Shown here: positions 10,501 to 51,005 of the stretch, piece after piece
How the letters are laid out: each line of letters begins with the position of its first letter
Numbering within the stretch: position 1 is the first letter of the stretch
Assembly: GCF_037392515.1 (NCBI RefSeq)
Contig: NC_090281.1
Span: forward strand, 48,646,645-48,710,644
Reading direction: 5' to 3'
DNA from: Haliotis asinina
Lineage: Eukaryota; Mollusca; Gastropoda; Lepetellida; Haliotidae
Length of the DNA: 64,000 nucleotides
Position numbers and translations under genes: made by a program
Notes under the pieces: generated by a model
The model's database searches: none
Told to the model about the DNA's origin: nothing
Seen by the model: only the letters and a program-made list of their open reading frames with translations

Positions 10501-13500
10501 TCATGGTCATGCACTGCACATGCACTAGCCTACATATGCTCTACCTTTCACAAACCAAATGAGTTTGCTCACTGCCATGCACCGACTACTTCTCGTAAAA
10601 GCGTTTTCTGCACCGGTCCAACCTATCCTTGTTTGCCAGTAGTAAAAGGCAAATGGCATGATTGCTTATGATAACTGACCACTCTAATCTTACAGTGTTT
10701 ACTGTGGAGTTGGTACCTGGCAAACGATATGCAGTTCTTCGTCTTGACTCCTCTCATTCTCATTCCCCTCTTCTAGTAAGTAGATATCTCTTTTGCTACT
10801 CAACTAATGTTTGGGTCACTGAACAAACGTGTTACGAACTCTGAACTTAGCATGAGCATCGACCTACACAGTTGGATACGATGGAATGTCTCAGACAGGT
10901 TAACCAGCCTGACCGCGCGATCCCGACTGTCGCCTCATCCGACAAACATGTGTTGCTGAAGTTCAATTCTAAGCCGGATCTTATCGGGTTTTTAAAGGAA
11001 GATATTCCTTGGTATCATAATTGTTTGTGTGACAACATTTCTTGTCAGACTTAGCAATGAAACCTAGGCTGTTCTGTTGAACGAGGCTCAGCTTTCAAAT
11101 ATATCTGGGTTGTAACTGTCTCTTATTTTGTTTATGGGCACATATTTGGCGTCGATTTAGGGCATAACCCTATACACGTAATTCACGGTTGGTAATTTAT
11201 ATGGTGCGTATTTCTTTTACGAAATTACTTTTGCACACACCTCATGTTAAGGATACGTACGATATTTACTACGATTATTCATTCGTGTGATACACATTTC
11301 AGTGTTTAATTCGATTGATACGGGATTCCCTTGTGTGTGAATAATATCATACGCATTTCAGAGTTTGTAGTCTGCATTGTAGGTACACCACGGTTTGTAT
11401 GATAGTCAAATACAGTTAAAGTAGTAGTTGGGTATAAGCTGTTTTGTTCGTCTCCTACAACCCACGCTATGCAGGATGAACTCATCAATAACCCATAATC
11501 GTCGTATTTGCAGACTAATGGGGATTACTCGTGGGCTGTCATGGAGTGAACATGCTTTCAGCCACTGGGTTTCGTTGGTTGATATGGAATACTCATGCTT
11601 TCAGCCATTGGGTTTCGTTGTTAGTCATGGAGTGCTCATGCTTCGAGCCATTGGTTTCCGTTGGTTGTGATAGTGTGCTTATGCTTTCAGCTACTGTTTT
11701 CCTTGGTTGTCATGGAGTAATCATGCTTTCAGCCACTGGCTTGTTAGACCCAGACACAGCGTGGACAAAGTGGCATACTGACGGTGACTTGAAACAACAA
11801 CTCTTTCTTCCTTATTTCCAGTTCGGAGATGCTCGGTATGATTGTGATCGGCGTATTCCTTGCTGCTACTCTCACGACTGCTGGATTGATATCAAGGCTT
11901 GACAACATACCCGTTGGTACCTTCTACCAGACGGAGGGAAAACAGTAGGTTTTCTGTCTTTCTTCTAGCTGTAAAGTTATCGTCTAACTGATTTATAGTA
12001 GCGGACGTTCATATTAACAAACTCGATCATATATGTTTTATGTGGCACTAGTAAAATCTGACTCTAGCACATGTAAGTATCATCGACGAAAATTAAAACA
12101 GTTTTCTACGCAGACATGTACCCTTTCTGGAGGTATGAATATATTACGTGGATGAAAGTATAGTCTAGGTAGATATCAGTATATTTTACGTTGATGAAAG
12201 CTACTTCTACATAATAGGAGTATATTCTACGTGGATGAAAGATTCTTCTACCTAGGTATGAGAACATTTTACGTGGATGAAAGTACCGTCTACGTAGATA
12301 TGAGTACATTTTAAGTGGATGAAAGTATCGCCAACGTAGATAGGAGTACATTTTACATGGATGAAAGCACGGTCTACGTAGGTATGAGTACATTTTACAT
12401 GGATGAAAGTACATTTTACATGGATGAAAGTATCGTCTACGTAGGTATGAGTACATTTTACATGGATGAAAGTACCGTCTACGTAGGTATGAGTACATTT
12501 TACATGGATGAAAGTACGGTCTACATAGGTATGAGTACATTTTACATGGATGAAAGTACCGTCTACGTAGGTATGAGTACATTTTACATGGATGAAAGTA
12601 CCGTCTACGTAGGTATGAGTACATTTTACATGGATGAAAGTACGGTCTACGTAGGTATGAGTACATTTTACATGGATGAAAGTACGGTCTACGTAGGTAT
12701 GAGTACATTTTACATGGATGAAAGCACGGTCTGCGTAGGTATGAGTACATTTTACATGGATGAAAGTACGGTCTACGTAGGTATGAGTACATTTTACATG
12801 GATGAAAGTACCGTCTACGTAGGTATGAGTACATTTTACATGGATGAAAGTACCGCCTACGTAGGTATGAGTACATTTTACATGGATGAAAGTACGGTCT
12901 ACGTAGGTATGAGTACATTTTACATGGATGAAAGTACCGTCTACGTAGGTATGAGTACATTTTACGTGAATGAAAGTACCGTCTACGTAGGTATGAGTAC
13001 ATTTTACATGGATGAAAGTACGGCCTACGTAGGTATGAGTACATTTTACATGGATGAAAGCACGGTCTACGTAGGTATGAGTACATTTTACATGGATGAA
13101 AGTACCGTCTACGTAGGTATGAGTACATTTTACATGGATGAAAGTACCGCCTACGTAGGTATGAGTACATTTTACATGGATGAAAGTACGGTCTACGTAG
13201 GTATGAGTACATTTTACATGGATGAAAGTACGGTCTACATAGGTATGAGTACATTTTACATGGATGAAAGTACCGTCTACGTAGGTATGAGTACATTTTA
13301 CATGGATGAAAGTACCGTCTACGTAGGTATGAGTACATTTTACATGGATGAAAGTACGGTCTACGTAGGTATGAGTACATTTTACATGGATGAAAGTACG
13401 GTCTACGTAGGTATGAGTACATTTTACATGGATGAAAGCACGGTCTGCGTAGGTATGAGTACATTTTACATGGATGAAAGTACGGTCTACGTAGGTATGA

Positions 13501-16500
13501 GTACATTTTACATGGATGAAAGTACCGTCTACGTAGGTATGAGTACATTTTACATGGATGAAAGTACCGCCTACGTAGGTATGAGTACATTTTACATGGA
13601 TGAAAGTACGGTCTACGTAGGTATGAGTACATTTTACATGGATGAAAGTACCGTCTACGTAGGTATGAGTACATTTTACGTGAATGAAAGTACCGTCTAC
13701 GTAGGTATGAGTACATTTTACATGGATGAAAGTACGGCCTACGTAGGTATGAGTACATTTTACATGGATGAAAGCACGGTCTACGTAGGTATGAGTACAT
13801 TTTACATGGATGAAAGTACCGTCTACGTAGGTATGAGTACATTTTACATGGATGAAAGTACCGCCTACGTAGGTATGAGTACATTTTACATGGATGAAAG
13901 TACGGTCTACGTAGGTATGAGTACATTTTACATGGATGAAAGTACCGCCTACGTAGATATGAGTACATTTTACATGGATGAAAGCACGGTCTACGTAGGT
14001 ATGAGTACATTTTACATGGATGAAAGTACCGTCTACGTAGGTATGAGTACATTTTACATGGATGAAAGTACGGTCTACGTAGGTATGAGTACATTTTACA
14101 TGGATGAAAGTACGGTCTACGTAGGTATGAGTACATTTTACATGGATGAAAGTACCGTCTACGTAGGTATGAGTACATTTTACGTGAATGAAAGTACCGT
14201 CTACGTAGGTATGAGTACATTTTACATGGATGAAAGTACGGTCTACGTAGGTATGAGTACATTTTACATGGATGAAAGTACGGTCTACGTAGGTATGAGT
14301 ACATTTTACATGGATGAAAGTACCGTCTACATAGGTATGAGTACATTTTACATGAATGAAAGTACCGTCTACGTAGGTATGAGTACATTTTACATGGATG
14401 AAAGTACGGTCTACGTAGGTATGAGTACATTTTACATGGATGAAAGCACGGTCTACGTAGGTATGAGTACATTTTACATGGATGAAAGTACCGTCTACGT
14501 AGGTATGAGTACATTTTACATGGATGAAAGTACCGCCTACGTAGGTATGAGTACACTTTACATGGATGAAAGTACCGCCTACGTAGATATGAGTACATTT
14601 TACATGGATGAAAGTACGGTCTACGTAGGTATGAGTACATTTTACATGGATGAAAGTACGGTCTACGTAGGTATGAGTACATTTTACATGGATGAAAGTA
14701 CCGCCTACGTAGGTATGAGTACATTTTACATGGATGAAAGTACGGTCTACGTAGGTATGAGTACATTTTACATGGATGAAAGTACCGCCTACGTAGGTAT
14801 GAGTACATTTTACATGGATGAAAGTACGGTCTACGTAGGTATGAGTACATTTTACGTGGATGAAGTCTTCGCCTACGTAGATGAGTACCTTCTGCGTGAA
14901 TGAAAGTATCGTCTACGTAGGTGTGAGTATATTTTACGTGGATGAAAGATTCTTCTACGTAGATAAAAGTACTATCGAGGTATAAGATATTTTCTTCAGA
15001 CTGCTGCAATGATACGCCTCATTAGTATTCAGCATAAATTAAATATCTGCACCATTCATTCTAAATCTAACAAAACTGTCCCCTTTTTTCAGGGGCCTTG
15101 CCAATTTTGGAGACTACTACATGACTCCCTACTGTCGGATGGGTCCATACCTCATTGGCATAGTCGCCGGATATCTCCTGTACAAAACAAACTGTAAACT
15201 CCGCCTAAATAAGGTTAGTCTAAAACTGCAGCTTATCAAGAAAAGCGAAACCAGACAGATTACATGGATGCCAGATAGTGACTGAGTGAGTGAAATTAGG
15301 TGTACGCCTTAAGCAATATTCCTGCAATATCACGACGGGGGACACCCTAAAATGGGCTTCACACAATGTACCCATGTGAGGAATCGAACCCGATCTTCGG
15401 CATGACGAGCGACCGTTTTGGCCACTAGGCTACACCAACGTCGGCGGCCAGAAAGCCAAATTGATGAATGTACAGATTTTCAACCCGTACCATCAGTAAT
15501 GGGTATTATGCTATTGAGAGTTATGTTTGTAGAGACTCGTGAAGGTCCGGGTCAGAATATTGGCCTTCAGTAATCTATGCATATCGTAACTGGCGACTAA
15601 CGGGATCTGATGGTCGGACTCGCTGACTTGGTTTACGCATGTCATCGGTTCCCAGATCGATGTGCGTGCTGTTCACTGGATTGTATTGTCCAGACTCCCT
15701 TATTTACAGACCGCCGCCATATTGCTGGTGTTCTGCTGAGTGCGGCGTAAAACTCACTCACTCACTCACTCACTCACTCTGTACAATTCTTACTTAAGAA
15801 AGCAGTGTTGGTCGGATGGGCTGTGGCAGCTGCGTCCGCTCTCGCGGTGCTTTATGGGCCGTACGAATCAGCCAATGGGACGCCGATGCCGAGTGACGTT
15901 TCAGCATTTTACAACTCGGCTCACAGGACGGTGTGGGGAGCTGCAGTCTGCTGGGTTGTGGTGGCGTGTGCAACAGGGAACGGAGGTAGGACTGCAATAT
16001 CCTAGCCTGATTCAACATGTATAGCCCAAACTGGACATCTACTTTTGTACTGTATAAATTATATACAGAATATAAGAGTCCTTAAGCCAAGGGGTATTTA
16101 TCTTTTATTCTGGAATACATATTTTCTAAAATATTGATAAAATTCAGTGCAGGTGCCTTGGCAACATATTGACGCATCTACAAGGAATTGTCATGTATGT
16201 TGCTTGTTCTTAGACTGCAACCCGTTACACTTTCTCTCTCTCTATACTAGAACCACAACAGATAATATTTACACTGATCGCTCACGTTGTAAGTAAACGG
16301 AACAAAACACCATTAGGCCTGAATTCGCTCTAGCTAAGCTTGTTACCACACTAATGCCACATTAAACCTTTATATTCACACAGAAGACCCTCAGTAGGTG
16401 TTGATGAAGAAAGCTTGATCAAAAGGCTACGTAAAACCTTAAAGCCATGTAAATGTAAAGTCATGACAAATTTCGAAACAATTTGTTCAGTATTAATAAG

Positions 16501-29218: not shown

Positions 29219-30720
29219 CAGGGATATTCTACAACAGGGATAGGTCACTGGCTTGCTTTCTTTACCATTTGTACTAATTAACGTGTACCTCGTCATGCTC
29301 CAACACCCACAGTGACTTGGCTCGTTCCCAGTGCAACTTCGGTTGTGTTTAACCAGGGAGACTATATAGAGTATATACGTTTTAGATTATCCCTGGTTTA
29401 ACAGAACTTCAGCCAGTTTATTGTATCAGTCGGAATTTTACAATGAATGAATGAATGAATTATGGTAAGAATTTAGAGCAAGAATTATGGGAATGAATGA
29501 ACGAAATAAAGAAAAAGAATAGAAGAAAAAAGTACATATGTGAATGAATGAAAGAATAAAGGATACACCGCGGCCTTCCCTCCCAATACATGTTAAAGAA
29601 CGCAAAAGTATCGCAAGAACACATGTTAACATCAGCTGCCCTTTTAAAAAATCTACTTTGAAACATTTTTGTTTACATTAATAATTTATTCAGGTAGGTT
29701 ATTGCATGTGGGGAATTGAATGGAAATTAACAAAATGTTAACTTACACTGTCACACTGCCCTCAAAAATAAAGAGTAAAACTCTCACAAAGGGGAACTAT
29801 AACCCTCAAGCATCAATGGCGAATCAGATCAGATCGGCAACATGTCATATTTTTCACACACCTCAAATACACCCTAACATTTTGTTTTAGGTTATGGAAC
29901 TATCACTATTACTTGCAAACACATTTGACCTGATGGTATATTCCCCTCATAAGAATTAAAGGTGTATGGGAAAGATGATTTTAAAGTAATAACTAGAAAC
30001 ACTCAAACAACGGCGTTTAGTATTTCAATGGCGAATCAGAGCAGATCGGCAATATGTCACATTTGTCACGCACCTCAAATATACCCTAACATTCTTTTTT
30101 AGATTATGAAACTATCACTATTACTTGCAAACACATTTCACCTGATAGTATATTCCCCTCATATGAATTAAAGGTGTATGTGAAAAATGTTTTTGAGGAA
30201 GTAACTAGGAATACTCAAACAACGGCGTATAGCATTTCAATGGCGAAAGGTCATATTTTTCACACATCTCAGTTACACCCTAACAATTTTTTAAGTCATA
30301 AAACTGTCACTATTACTTGCAAATACCTTTCAACTAAAGGTATGTTCTCCTTCTAAAAATTAAACGAATGCGTGAAAGAAGTCTCTATCGGCACAATCTT
30401 CGCGGTGAATCGAGAATAGAAGCCAGTGAGCTATAACTTACCGACTTGAAACTTTACTACAAATCTACTGTCCTAATACTGACGCTAATACCAATTATTT
30501 GACTTAAACTGAACTGACAAAATAGTTAACCTATCTTCTACATGTTGGATTTCAGTTGTTATAACACTCAGCGAACGTAATCAGCTGTTGAAAATAAACC
30601 GGGCTCAATCTCAAATACTACGCTGCCACCATATTGGCTACACTGGTTACGTAACGACCCGAGATATACGTTCAGCAGCTTTTCGAGGAGTTTCTTCTCC
30701 CCATCTATATGGGCTCCCTG
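29219..30720. mobile_element. non-autonomous DNA transposon with CAGGGA ends and 7-bp TSD (copy 1)
   Basis: Begins CAGGGATATTCTACAAC and ends ATATGGGCTCCCTG, flanked by GTCTGAT at 29212-29218 and 30721-30727. It matches 49010-50824 in inverted orientation along most of its length. Its interior holds three diverged repeats of about 190-210 bp marked by CACTATTACTTGCAAACAC at about 29908, 30118 and 30309, and (GAAT)n near 29443. No transposase is encoded. CAGGG ends recall hAT elements, but those usually make 8-bp duplications, so the superfamily is open. A 42-bp derivative is nested in it at 29354-29395. Confidence 0.85.
29354..29395. mobile_element. 42-bp micro-element of the same family, nested
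   Basis: CAGGGAGACTATATAGAG joined to a short middle and GATTATCCCTG, with perfect 7-bp duplications GTTTAAC at 29347-29353 and 29396-29402. Its left 20 bases match one end of the 1.5-1.8-kb element and its right 20 bases match the other end. It is thus an extreme internal-deletion derivative that evidently transposed. The equivalent site in the inverted copy (about 50715) lacks it. Confidence 0.8.
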
Positions 30721-48930: not shown

Positions 48931-51005
48931 TGCAGTAGATAAGAAGTCCTACGTAGGAGATACGAAGTTCTGCGTAGGAGATATTAAGAATGAATTACGT
49001 CCATCGTAGCAGGGAGCCTATGTAGAGAGGGAGAAGAAACTCCTCGAAAAGTACGTATGTCTCGCCTCGTCACGTGACCAATGTAGACAATATGGCGGCG
49101 ACTTAGTATTAAGATTGAGCCCGGTTTATTTTCAACAGCTGATTACATTCGCTGAGTGTTGTAGCAACTGAAAACCTATATGTAGAAGGTAGGTTAACTA
49201 TTTTGTCACTTCAGTTTAATTAAGTCAAATAGTTATTATTAGGGTCAGTATTGGGACAGTAGATTTGTAGTTACGTTTGAAGTCGGTATGTTATAGCTCA
49301 CTGGCTTCCATTTTCGATTCACCGAGAAGATAGGCTAAATTAAGTCGACAAAAACTTCTTTCACACTTTCGTTTAATTTTTAGAAGGGAAACATACCTTT
49401 AGTTGGAGGGTATTTGCAAGTAGTTGTGATAGTTTTATGACTTGAAAAAATGATTACACCGTATTTGAGTTGTGTGAAACATATGACATATCGCCGATCT
49501 GTTCTGTTTCGCCACTGAAATACTACACGACGTTGTTTGAGTGTTCCTACTGCTAGACACATATTAGATGATCCTGCGCACTAAACGCATTTGTGACAAG
49601 AGAGGCGGTACAACGAATTGGGCGAGTAAACTTGGTTGCTACAGGTAGCTTGACGATTATGCACGGGCAATACATGCTAACCGTGACATGAAATCAACAC
49701 CGCTACTGATTAACAACCGTCTCGCTACTGTGTAACACCTGTCTCGCTACTGTTTTACACCTGTCTCAATACTGTTAAACAGATTTCGATATTTATCAGA
49801 CAACCTGTCTCCCTGTTGTTTCAAGTGGATCGTTCTGTGGGGCGTTCCCAAGTATGCAAATTAGGGTCATTTGTCAGGTCTTGGATCATCTTATATGTGT
49901 TTACCAGTAGTTATTGCTTCAAAACCGTCTGTCACGTACACCTTTCATTCTTGTGAGGGAAATATACTATCAGGTGAAATGTGTTTGCATGTAATAGTGA
50001 GAGTTTCATCATCTACAAAACATATGTTATGGTGTATTCGAGGTGTGTGAAAAAGTGACATGTCGCTGATTTGATCTGATCAGCCATGGAAATACTAAAC
50101 TGCGTTGTTCGAGTGTTTCTAGTTATTATTTTATAAAACATATTTCCCATACACCTTTAATCTTTATGAAGGGAATTTACCATCAGGTGAAAGGTGTTTG
50201 CAAGTAATAGTGATAGTTTTATGATTGTAAAAAACTTGTTAGGGCGTATGTGATGTTTGTGAAAAATATGACGATCTAATCTGATCCGCAATTGATGTTG
50301 GTGATGTTTGAGGGTTATAATTCTCTAACTTCTTTCTTTCTTATTGATCTTAATATTTTTTGTTGATCTTATTATTTGACAAAACTGGAAATGTGCTTTT
50401 AACGTTTTGTGATAATTTTAAACTTTCTGTTTTTGTGTGGTGTGTGATAGTGTCAGTTAACATTTTGTTAATGTCCATGCCATTCCCTACATGCAGCTTT
50501 TAAAAATACATGTGATATTAACTCATGAGTTACTTTTGCGATACTTTTGCTTTCTTAAACGTGTTTTGGGGGGAGTGGCCGTGGCGTATCATTTATTCTT
50601 TCATTCATTCACATATGTACTACTTTTTTTATTTCATTTTTTTATTCACTGATAATTCTTGCTCTTGATTCTCATTAGAATTCATTCATTCATTGTAAAT
50701 TCCGACCGATACTGGGAACGAGCAAAGTCACTGTGTGCGTTGGAGCATGATGAGACACGCGTTAATTAGTACAAATGGTAAAGAAAGCAAGGGAGTGACC
50801 TATCCCTGTTGTAGATTATCCCTGATCGTGGGAGATATTAAGTCCTACGTAGGAACAAGATAAAAAGTCGATCCTACGCAAGAGATACTGAGTTCTACGT
50901 AGGAGATACTATAAGTACTACGTAGGAGATATTAAGTAACAAGTCCTACGTATGACATTATTTAAGTCCTTCGTAGGAGATAGTATGTCCGTAGGAGATA
51001 TTGAA
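48931..51005. repeat. TCCTACGTAGGAGATA-type minisatellite, interrupted by a transposon
   Basis: Left part 48931-49009 and right part 50825-51005 share units such as AGTCCTACGTAGGAGATA followed by TTAAG, about 20-30 bp each. The transposon at 49010-50824 sits between them. Each unit is centred on a palindrome. Confidence 0.8.
49010..50824. mobile_element. non-autonomous DNA transposon with CAGGGA ends and 7-bp TSD (copy 2)
   Basis: Begins CAGGGAGCCTATGTAG and ends GTAGATTATCCCTG, flanked by ATCGTAG (49003-49009) and ATCGTGG (50825-50831), one mismatch. Inverted relative to 29219-30720 and about 300 bp longer, mainly because of an extra block around 49560-49900. It carries the same internal repeats (TTTGCAAGTAATAGTGATAG and variants at about 49409, 49984 and 50189) and a (CATT)n tract near 50605. 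No transposase. Confidence 0.85.

Follow-up and report, generated by a model that had tools for sequence, protein, structure and literature searches.

The window analysed here is a stretch of 64,000 nucleotides from the gastropod Haliotis asinina (RefSeq assembly GCF_037392515.1, contig NC_090281.1, positions 48,646,645 to 48,710,644 of the forward strand), in which a transposable element, host element A, carries a 42-bp unit composed of two transposon ends, and in which a second member of the same family, element B, lies without that unit. The features are as follows, with positions counted from the first letter of the window:

29219..30720, minus strand: host element A, of 1502 bp and the same family as the unit, apparently non-autonomous, flanked by ATCAGAC (7/7 identical, read on the minus strand)
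29333..29422, no strand: about 90 bp of A that B lacks, made up of the unit, its duplications and about 41 bp of further sequence
29347..29353, plus strand: target-site duplication GTTTAAC, left copy
29354..29395, plus strand: 42-bp unit, very probably an excision scar (18 nt of left end, 7 nt of filler, 17 nt of right end)
29354..29371, plus strand: left-end part of the unit, 18 nt
29372..29378, plus strand: filler TATATAC, 7 nt
29379..29395, plus strand: right-end part of the unit, 17 nt
29396..29402, plus strand: target-site duplication GTTTAAC, right copy
49010..50824, plus strand: element B, host family, 1815 bp, without the unit, flanked by ATCGTAG and ATCGTGG (6/7 identical)

The 42-bp unit reads CAGGGAGACTATATAGAGTATATACGTTTTAGATTATCCCTG, starting with CAGGGAG and ending with TATCCCTG, and is the sole match in the window to a unit pattern defined by these two ends. 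GTTTAAC stands directly on both sides of it, identical at 7 of 7 positions and not extending to an 8-bp repeat. A sequence-only reading of this DNA had described a transposon derivative with a perfect 7-bp target duplication, nested inside its own relative, and both points are confirmed, the relative being the 1502-bp family member. Its estimate that about 20 bp remain from each end was right in that both ends are kept, but the actual lengths are 18 nt on the left and 17 nt on the right, with 7 nt between them. Among the known copies of the family, we found no full-length parent for the GAC left end of the window unit.

The same reading had pointed to the inverted copy at 49010-50824 as lacking the unit. 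The unit is indeed absent there, but of the roughly 90 bp by which A is longer at this point, only 49 bp correspond to the unit plus one repeat; since B thus also lacks about 40 bp beyond the unit, it does not represent a precise empty site. Complete copies of the host family, in 22 rows that stand for 21 different copies (that of the window being listed twice), are flanked by duplications matching at 7/7 in 11, 6/7 in 8, 5/7 in 2 and 3/7 in 1, giving 6-7 of 7 in 19 of the 22 rows. Complete elements typically start with CAGGGAGCCTATATAGAG GGGGAGAAGAAACTCC and end, given as the reverse complement, with CAGGGATACTCTACAACA GGGATAGGTCACTC. Element B is itself embedded in a 21-bp minisatellite of CTACGTAGGAGATA-like units (window 48937-48983 and 50874-50938), and elsewhere in the window, at 12408-14962, lies a tandem array of about 61 copies of a 42-bp unit with 95% matches.

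Searching the genome (1.14 Gb in 159 contigs) allowed the GTTTAAC site of the host element to be followed in three states. For the empty state, a 107-bp query in which the flanks are joined over a single target aligned without gaps across the joint at all 40 scored places, the best 40 of 1,582 candidates; in the 20 of these that were read, a single target was found every time, as GTTTAAC in 19 and GTTTCAC in one. For the scarred state, the window query matched across the unit at 40 of 40 scored places, the best 40 of 1,839 candidates, with three further short matches falling within the same 40 places. These best matches carry the host flanks too. In addition, the exact string GTTTAAC-CAGGGAG...TATCCCTG-GTTTAAC occurs 89 times in the genome and not once in the control, and 71 of the 89 occurrences have the length of the 42-bp unit as judged by their coordinates. 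The host element therefore exists both with and without the unit, and both forms have multiplied.

The filled state was sought with the host left flank, GTTTAAC and the full-length left end as the left query, and with the corresponding right joint, at 40 scored places each. The left joint was spanned at four places (C15:48115972 at 90% identity, C5:16786171 at 87%, C6:49129357 at 90% and C2:101956001 at 86%) and the right joint was spanned fully at two (C4:7150670 at 99% and C15:48118757 at 93%). The place on C4 had no left partner among the places scored. Of the four left-joint places, the one on C15 alone is bounded on both sides; its two joints share a strand and are separated by about 2,795 bp, a pairing judged by position and by the identities of 90% and 93% only:

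C15, about 48116010..48118804: apparent element of about 2.8 kb in host flanks, assigned by position only

Another host copy thus appears still to hold a long element at the site that is scarred in the window. Alternatively, the places found here, C15 included, could reflect separate insertion events at a preferred target.

Short units of this kind are numerous throughout the genome. Units of 17-31 bp were matched 143 + 224 times against 5 + 5 in the control, those of 32-44 bp 624 + 726 times against 1 + 1, and those of 45-75 bp 50 + 131 times against 4 + 5. For units of 17-44 bp this gives a total of 1,717 (367 + 1,350) against 12 control matches, far above the control, which rules out chance as their source; the 1,717 are units rather than events, with copies of larger repeats and arrays counted in. 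At least 50 different units were present among about 100 of the 32-44-bp matches listed, and we estimate the number of independent events at several hundred; scars of this kind thus appear to number in the hundreds in this genome.

The distribution of lengths bears on an alternative in which the parent element, once inserted, was shortened in place by replication slippage or another internal deletion and never left its site. P elements do give rise to internal deletions, and such a deletion would likewise leave the duplication and both ends. Deletions in place should, however, stop at many different distances, whereas 1,350 units were counted at 32-44 bp against 181 at 45-75 bp, and most of the 45-75-bp matches listed are in fact two neighbouring units of a tandem array. 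Together with the limit of 18 nt on the ends, described below, this makes deletion in place the least probable of the alternatives considered, one to which we give hardly any weight.

The flanks of the short units were read in a sample of 100 loci, comprising 40 places matching the pattern (34 picked as family-like and 6 for comparison) and 60 of the 67 matches of 17-31 bp on contigs C1 and C2, the seven left out being repeats or already in the sample. All are bounded-length pattern matches from the start of the match lists (C1, and C1 with C2). At the six comparison places the flanks match at 1, 1, 2, 1, 4 and 1 of 7 positions. At the 60 C1/C2 loci they match at 7/7 in 24 and 6/7 in 11, with 4 in 1,920 for a shifted control. 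The 100 pattern units found in the 100 loci reduce to 74 sites with different surroundings, which we treat as independent. The flanks of these 74 are identical at 7/7 in 31, at 6/7 in 18, at 5/7 in 12 and at fewer positions in 13; a match at 6-7 of 7 is therefore seen at 49 of the 74 sites, compared with 3 in 1,850 for the shifted control, while the 25 sites at 5 of 7 or below count against the scar reading.

The shortest sampled unit with a perfect 7-bp duplication, CAGGGAGCCTATCCCTG, measures 17 bp (locus L130, C1:33984940-33985256), and another scar lies about 60 bp from it. Loci L151 and L155 share a repeated 24-bp look-alike, CAGGGAGAATATTGTCTATCCCTG, whose flanks match at 3/7 in both; having no duplication, it illustrates that not every match to the pattern is a scar. 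The genome-wide search for short units with matching 7-bp flanks that the sequence-only reading had proposed thus returned many, and its claim did not fall for want of further copies.

That claim was that 20 bp or so at each end is enough for mobilisation, such that units of 18 + 18 bp would themselves be recognised, cut and inserted by a transposase and would rank among the smallest mobile elements known. In favour of such a micro-element are units of 26-28 bp that have perfect 7-bp duplications and the same sequence at several independent sites, and the 17-bp unit with a 7/7 duplication is a further point for it. Many copies of one 42-bp master at independent sites, as expected of a MITE, were nevertheless not found among the sampled loci: the 49 well-flanked sites carry 43 different unit sequences, and just four units recur, at 2, 2, 3 and 3 sites, three being the maximum. 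The recurring units are simple joints, a 27-, a 29-, a 26- and a 28-mer with 1, 1, 7 and 2 shared bases, respectively (the 26-mer and 28-mer at three sites each), so that all four share between 1 and 7 bases at the joint. Also against a mobilised 42-bp unit are end matches that stop at 18-20 nt and the 2.8-kb element that a different copy of the host appears to have at this site.

Published requirements for P elements point the same way. According to PMC1562414, P elements need at least 100 bp per end: the Drosophila P element needs at least 138 bp and at least 216 bp at its two ends, and for Anopheles the P-MITEs are read there as indicating that 100 bp at each end may be enough. Even 100 bp is far above 18, which argues against mobilisation of a 42-bp unit. 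We regard a mobile micro-element as highly improbable, if marginally less so than deletion in place, and the suggestion of a record-small mobile element has been removed.

What the units share instead is their construction. Most join a left-end piece to a right-end piece, each of at most 18 nt, and show trimming, microhomology or a few added bases. The most reliable count of end matches takes all units of one pattern in the 100 sampled loci, or 74 sites. There the match to the left end stops at 18 nt in 23, reaches 19 nt in 3 and is never longer, and that to the right end stops at 18 nt in 17, reaches 20 nt in 3 and is never longer; the ends are hence kept up to a fixed maximum of 18 nt on both sides, exceeded by 1-2 nt at 3 of 74 sites per side. 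In complete copies the match continues past 18 nt in 20 of 21 cases on the left and 31 of 31 on the right, a comparison that is partly circular in that complete copies were chosen by inner sequence, with two mismatches allowed against one for the units, and that shows the existence of a continuation rather than an independent rate. At 34 of the 74 sites the left match to the one known parent family is short, 8-13 nt, which may reflect trimming or other subfamilies with parents outside the known family and weighs against the scar reading.

The joints themselves were typed in 103-104 units that were picked by eye from the matches listed, most rows from arrays and several odd rows being excluded. 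Of the 103 distinct units typed, 33 join two trimmed 18-nt ends directly, and their microhomology averages 1.76 bases against 0.85 for random pairs of ends, a value reached in 3 of 10,000 draws in a test that took the largest possible overlap per unit on these typed units and so favours the scar reading. Templating of fillers, examined in ten hand-picked cases, was reached by 2 of 2,000 shuffles in one case and by 88 in another, the rest being mostly unremarkable; for the window filler TATATAC the figure is 160 of 2,000, and the other cases beyond the best two were reached by more. Fillers look templated in only some cases.

A distinct junction at nearly every site, two ends that both stop at about 18 nt and an apparent long element at the same site together argue for excision followed by end joining. 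We therefore consider it very likely that the 42-bp unit is the excision scar of a larger transposon and not a mobile micro-element, and, with somewhat less confidence, that a transposase of the P superfamily made it; the other short units probably derive mostly from the same process. In the sequence of events that we propose, an ancestor of host element A would first have received a full-length CAGGGAG...TATCCCTG element at its GTTTAAC site, with a duplication of 7 bp, as suggested by the duplication itself and by the element apparently still present in another host copy. A P-superfamily transposase would then have cut one strand at the edge of the element and the other 18 nt inside each end, so that each broken flank would keep 18 nt of the element, as the 18-nt limit of the end matches suggests. 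The two non-complementary tails would have been end-joined with microhomology, trimming or short filler, in keeping with the junction types seen, by a polymerase presumed from Drosophila. Finally, the scarred host copy would have multiplied by its own transposition, spreading the same scar to at least 40 places, with the short unit itself being immobile.

The identity of the transposase was approached through its relatives in the genome. P-type transposases combine RNase H with a GTP-binding insertion, and the P-type RNase H domain (PF21787) has 21 matches. One of these, the frame at locus L053, contains both PF21787 and PF21788, and its nearest solved structure is a P transposase, by a weak match (E 0.0034). 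No intact autonomous element with a P transposase between CAGGGAG and TATCCCTG ends was found among the 21 P loci; the right end is carried by locus L062 alone, and no element ends were recognised around the other P loci when related loci were compared. Two pairs of P-transposase loci, L047/L048 and L054/L055, are 99.9% identical over the whole stretch read and lie on two contigs or 0.9 Mb apart, an identity that suggests recent duplication or recent activity.

Locus L062, on contig C4, is a degenerate P-transposase copy that aligns with L065 and L052 (about 89%) up to its position 2047. Its last 18 nt (2046-2063) read TGTTGTAGATTATCCCTG, exactly the right end of the family, and are followed by GTTATAC; four other places with the L062 stretch break off at the same point. 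Such a structure would look like an interrupted gap repair, in which copying proceeds from one side and the product is joined to the 18-nt tail on the opposite side, although this is one case among 21 loci and where it ends on the left is uncertain. The 8 kb upstream yielded no left end that matches and has a GTTATAC flank, the flanks at the homology border match at 5/7 only (counted by eye), and Pfam returned no family for two pieces of the locus. A scar class predicted from the apparent left end of L062 (CAGGGCATC...TATCCCTG) did not show up: the pattern gave five matches against none in the control, and the two that could be read are both unlike scars.

These observations bear on whether the units are scars left by a transposase outside the P superfamily that cuts 18 nt inside its ends. 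The failure to find an autonomous P element with such ends in the genome is in its favour, as are the CAGGG ends, which we take to fit the hAT pattern as well. The 7-bp palindromic duplications, resembling those of Galileo, and the 21 P-transposase matches, one of which ends in precisely 18 nt of right-end sequence, speak for the P superfamily instead, and we know of no other well-known superfamily that leaves such long end pieces. In the 48 hand-compiled sites the second position of the duplication is T in 38 and the sixth is A in 45, and the duplications of the host family have the same preference (15 of 18 and 16 of 18), with a consensus of roughly S-T-W-N-W-A-S, a palindromic pattern. A non-P transposase, an alternative that overlaps the scar part of the preferred explanation and differs from it in the transposase alone, is in our judgement unlikely, though less remote than the two alternatives weighed above.

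If the units are excision scars, each one records the healing of a defined break in an animal germline, and microhomology use, trimming and filler become countable over evolutionary time without an experiment. We lean towards regarding the genome as an archive of at least several hundred independent repairs of germline double-strand breaks with near-identical 18-nt tails from one transposon family, in which some scars have since become minisatellite units. Tandem arrays whose unit is a scar plus its 7-bp duplication (about 38, 41 or 46 bp) occur at G000:C4:82445814-82451773, C4:1440512-1440791, C4:2343295-2343738, C1:66026518-66027756 and C1:100552392-100552753. These arrays are apparently minisatellites seeded by excision scars, which suggests a possible route from scar to minisatellite. 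Two different scars also recur together about 2.6-3.8 kb apart (C1:136188/140012, 2714600/2717162 and 8277065/8279951), and one larger repeat probably carries both. Mechanism and type of scar are known already; it is the size of the archive and the arrays of scar plus duplication that are of interest. We found no published description of a genome with P scars in such number, or of scars turned into tandem arrays, in a search lying largely outside the subscription literature, which makes this a weak negative. The findings also carry a caution, in that short repeats with transposon ends and flanking duplications can be scars mistakable for tiny MITEs.

Several known systems can be set beside these findings. 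Anopheles gambiae P-MITEs (PMC1562414) are high-copy, non-autonomous P relatives, as host elements A and B are; they differ in having 8-bp duplications and somewhat less than 100 bp of P sequence per end, far above that of the scars. Galileo, a member of the P superfamily in Drosophila, has mostly 7-bp duplications with the consensus GTATTAC (PMC4168063), and is alike in the length and palindromic preference of the duplication, a likeness by duplication alone; it is unlike in possessing long terminal repeats, and footprints are not named in the main text of that paper. The zebrafish element Pdre2 has a duplication of 8 bp (PMC10983969).

The closest counterpart is found in the footprints of the Drosophila melanogaster P element. 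P transposase cuts one strand at the edge of the element and the other 17 bp inside (PMC7776569), leaving breaks with 17-nt non-complementary 3' tails, and the repaired junctions have a filler between two 17-nt end pieces, with the duplication on either side (PMC2895639). These footprints arise when the transposase cuts inside the ends and the breaks are healed by alternative end joining. They share with the units described here the order of duplication, end pieces (up to 17 nt in Drosophila) with microhomology or filler between them, and duplication. The Drosophila footprints, with 17 nt and an 8-bp duplication, come from laboratory crosses, whereas those seen here, with 18 nt and 7 bp, are found in large number in one genome, and the stagger of 18 rather than 17 nt counts against the P-scar reading. 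Stagger and duplication add up to 25 in both systems (17 + 8 in Drosophila P, 18 + 7 here), a shared sum that is possibly a geometric constraint of the transposase, or chance.
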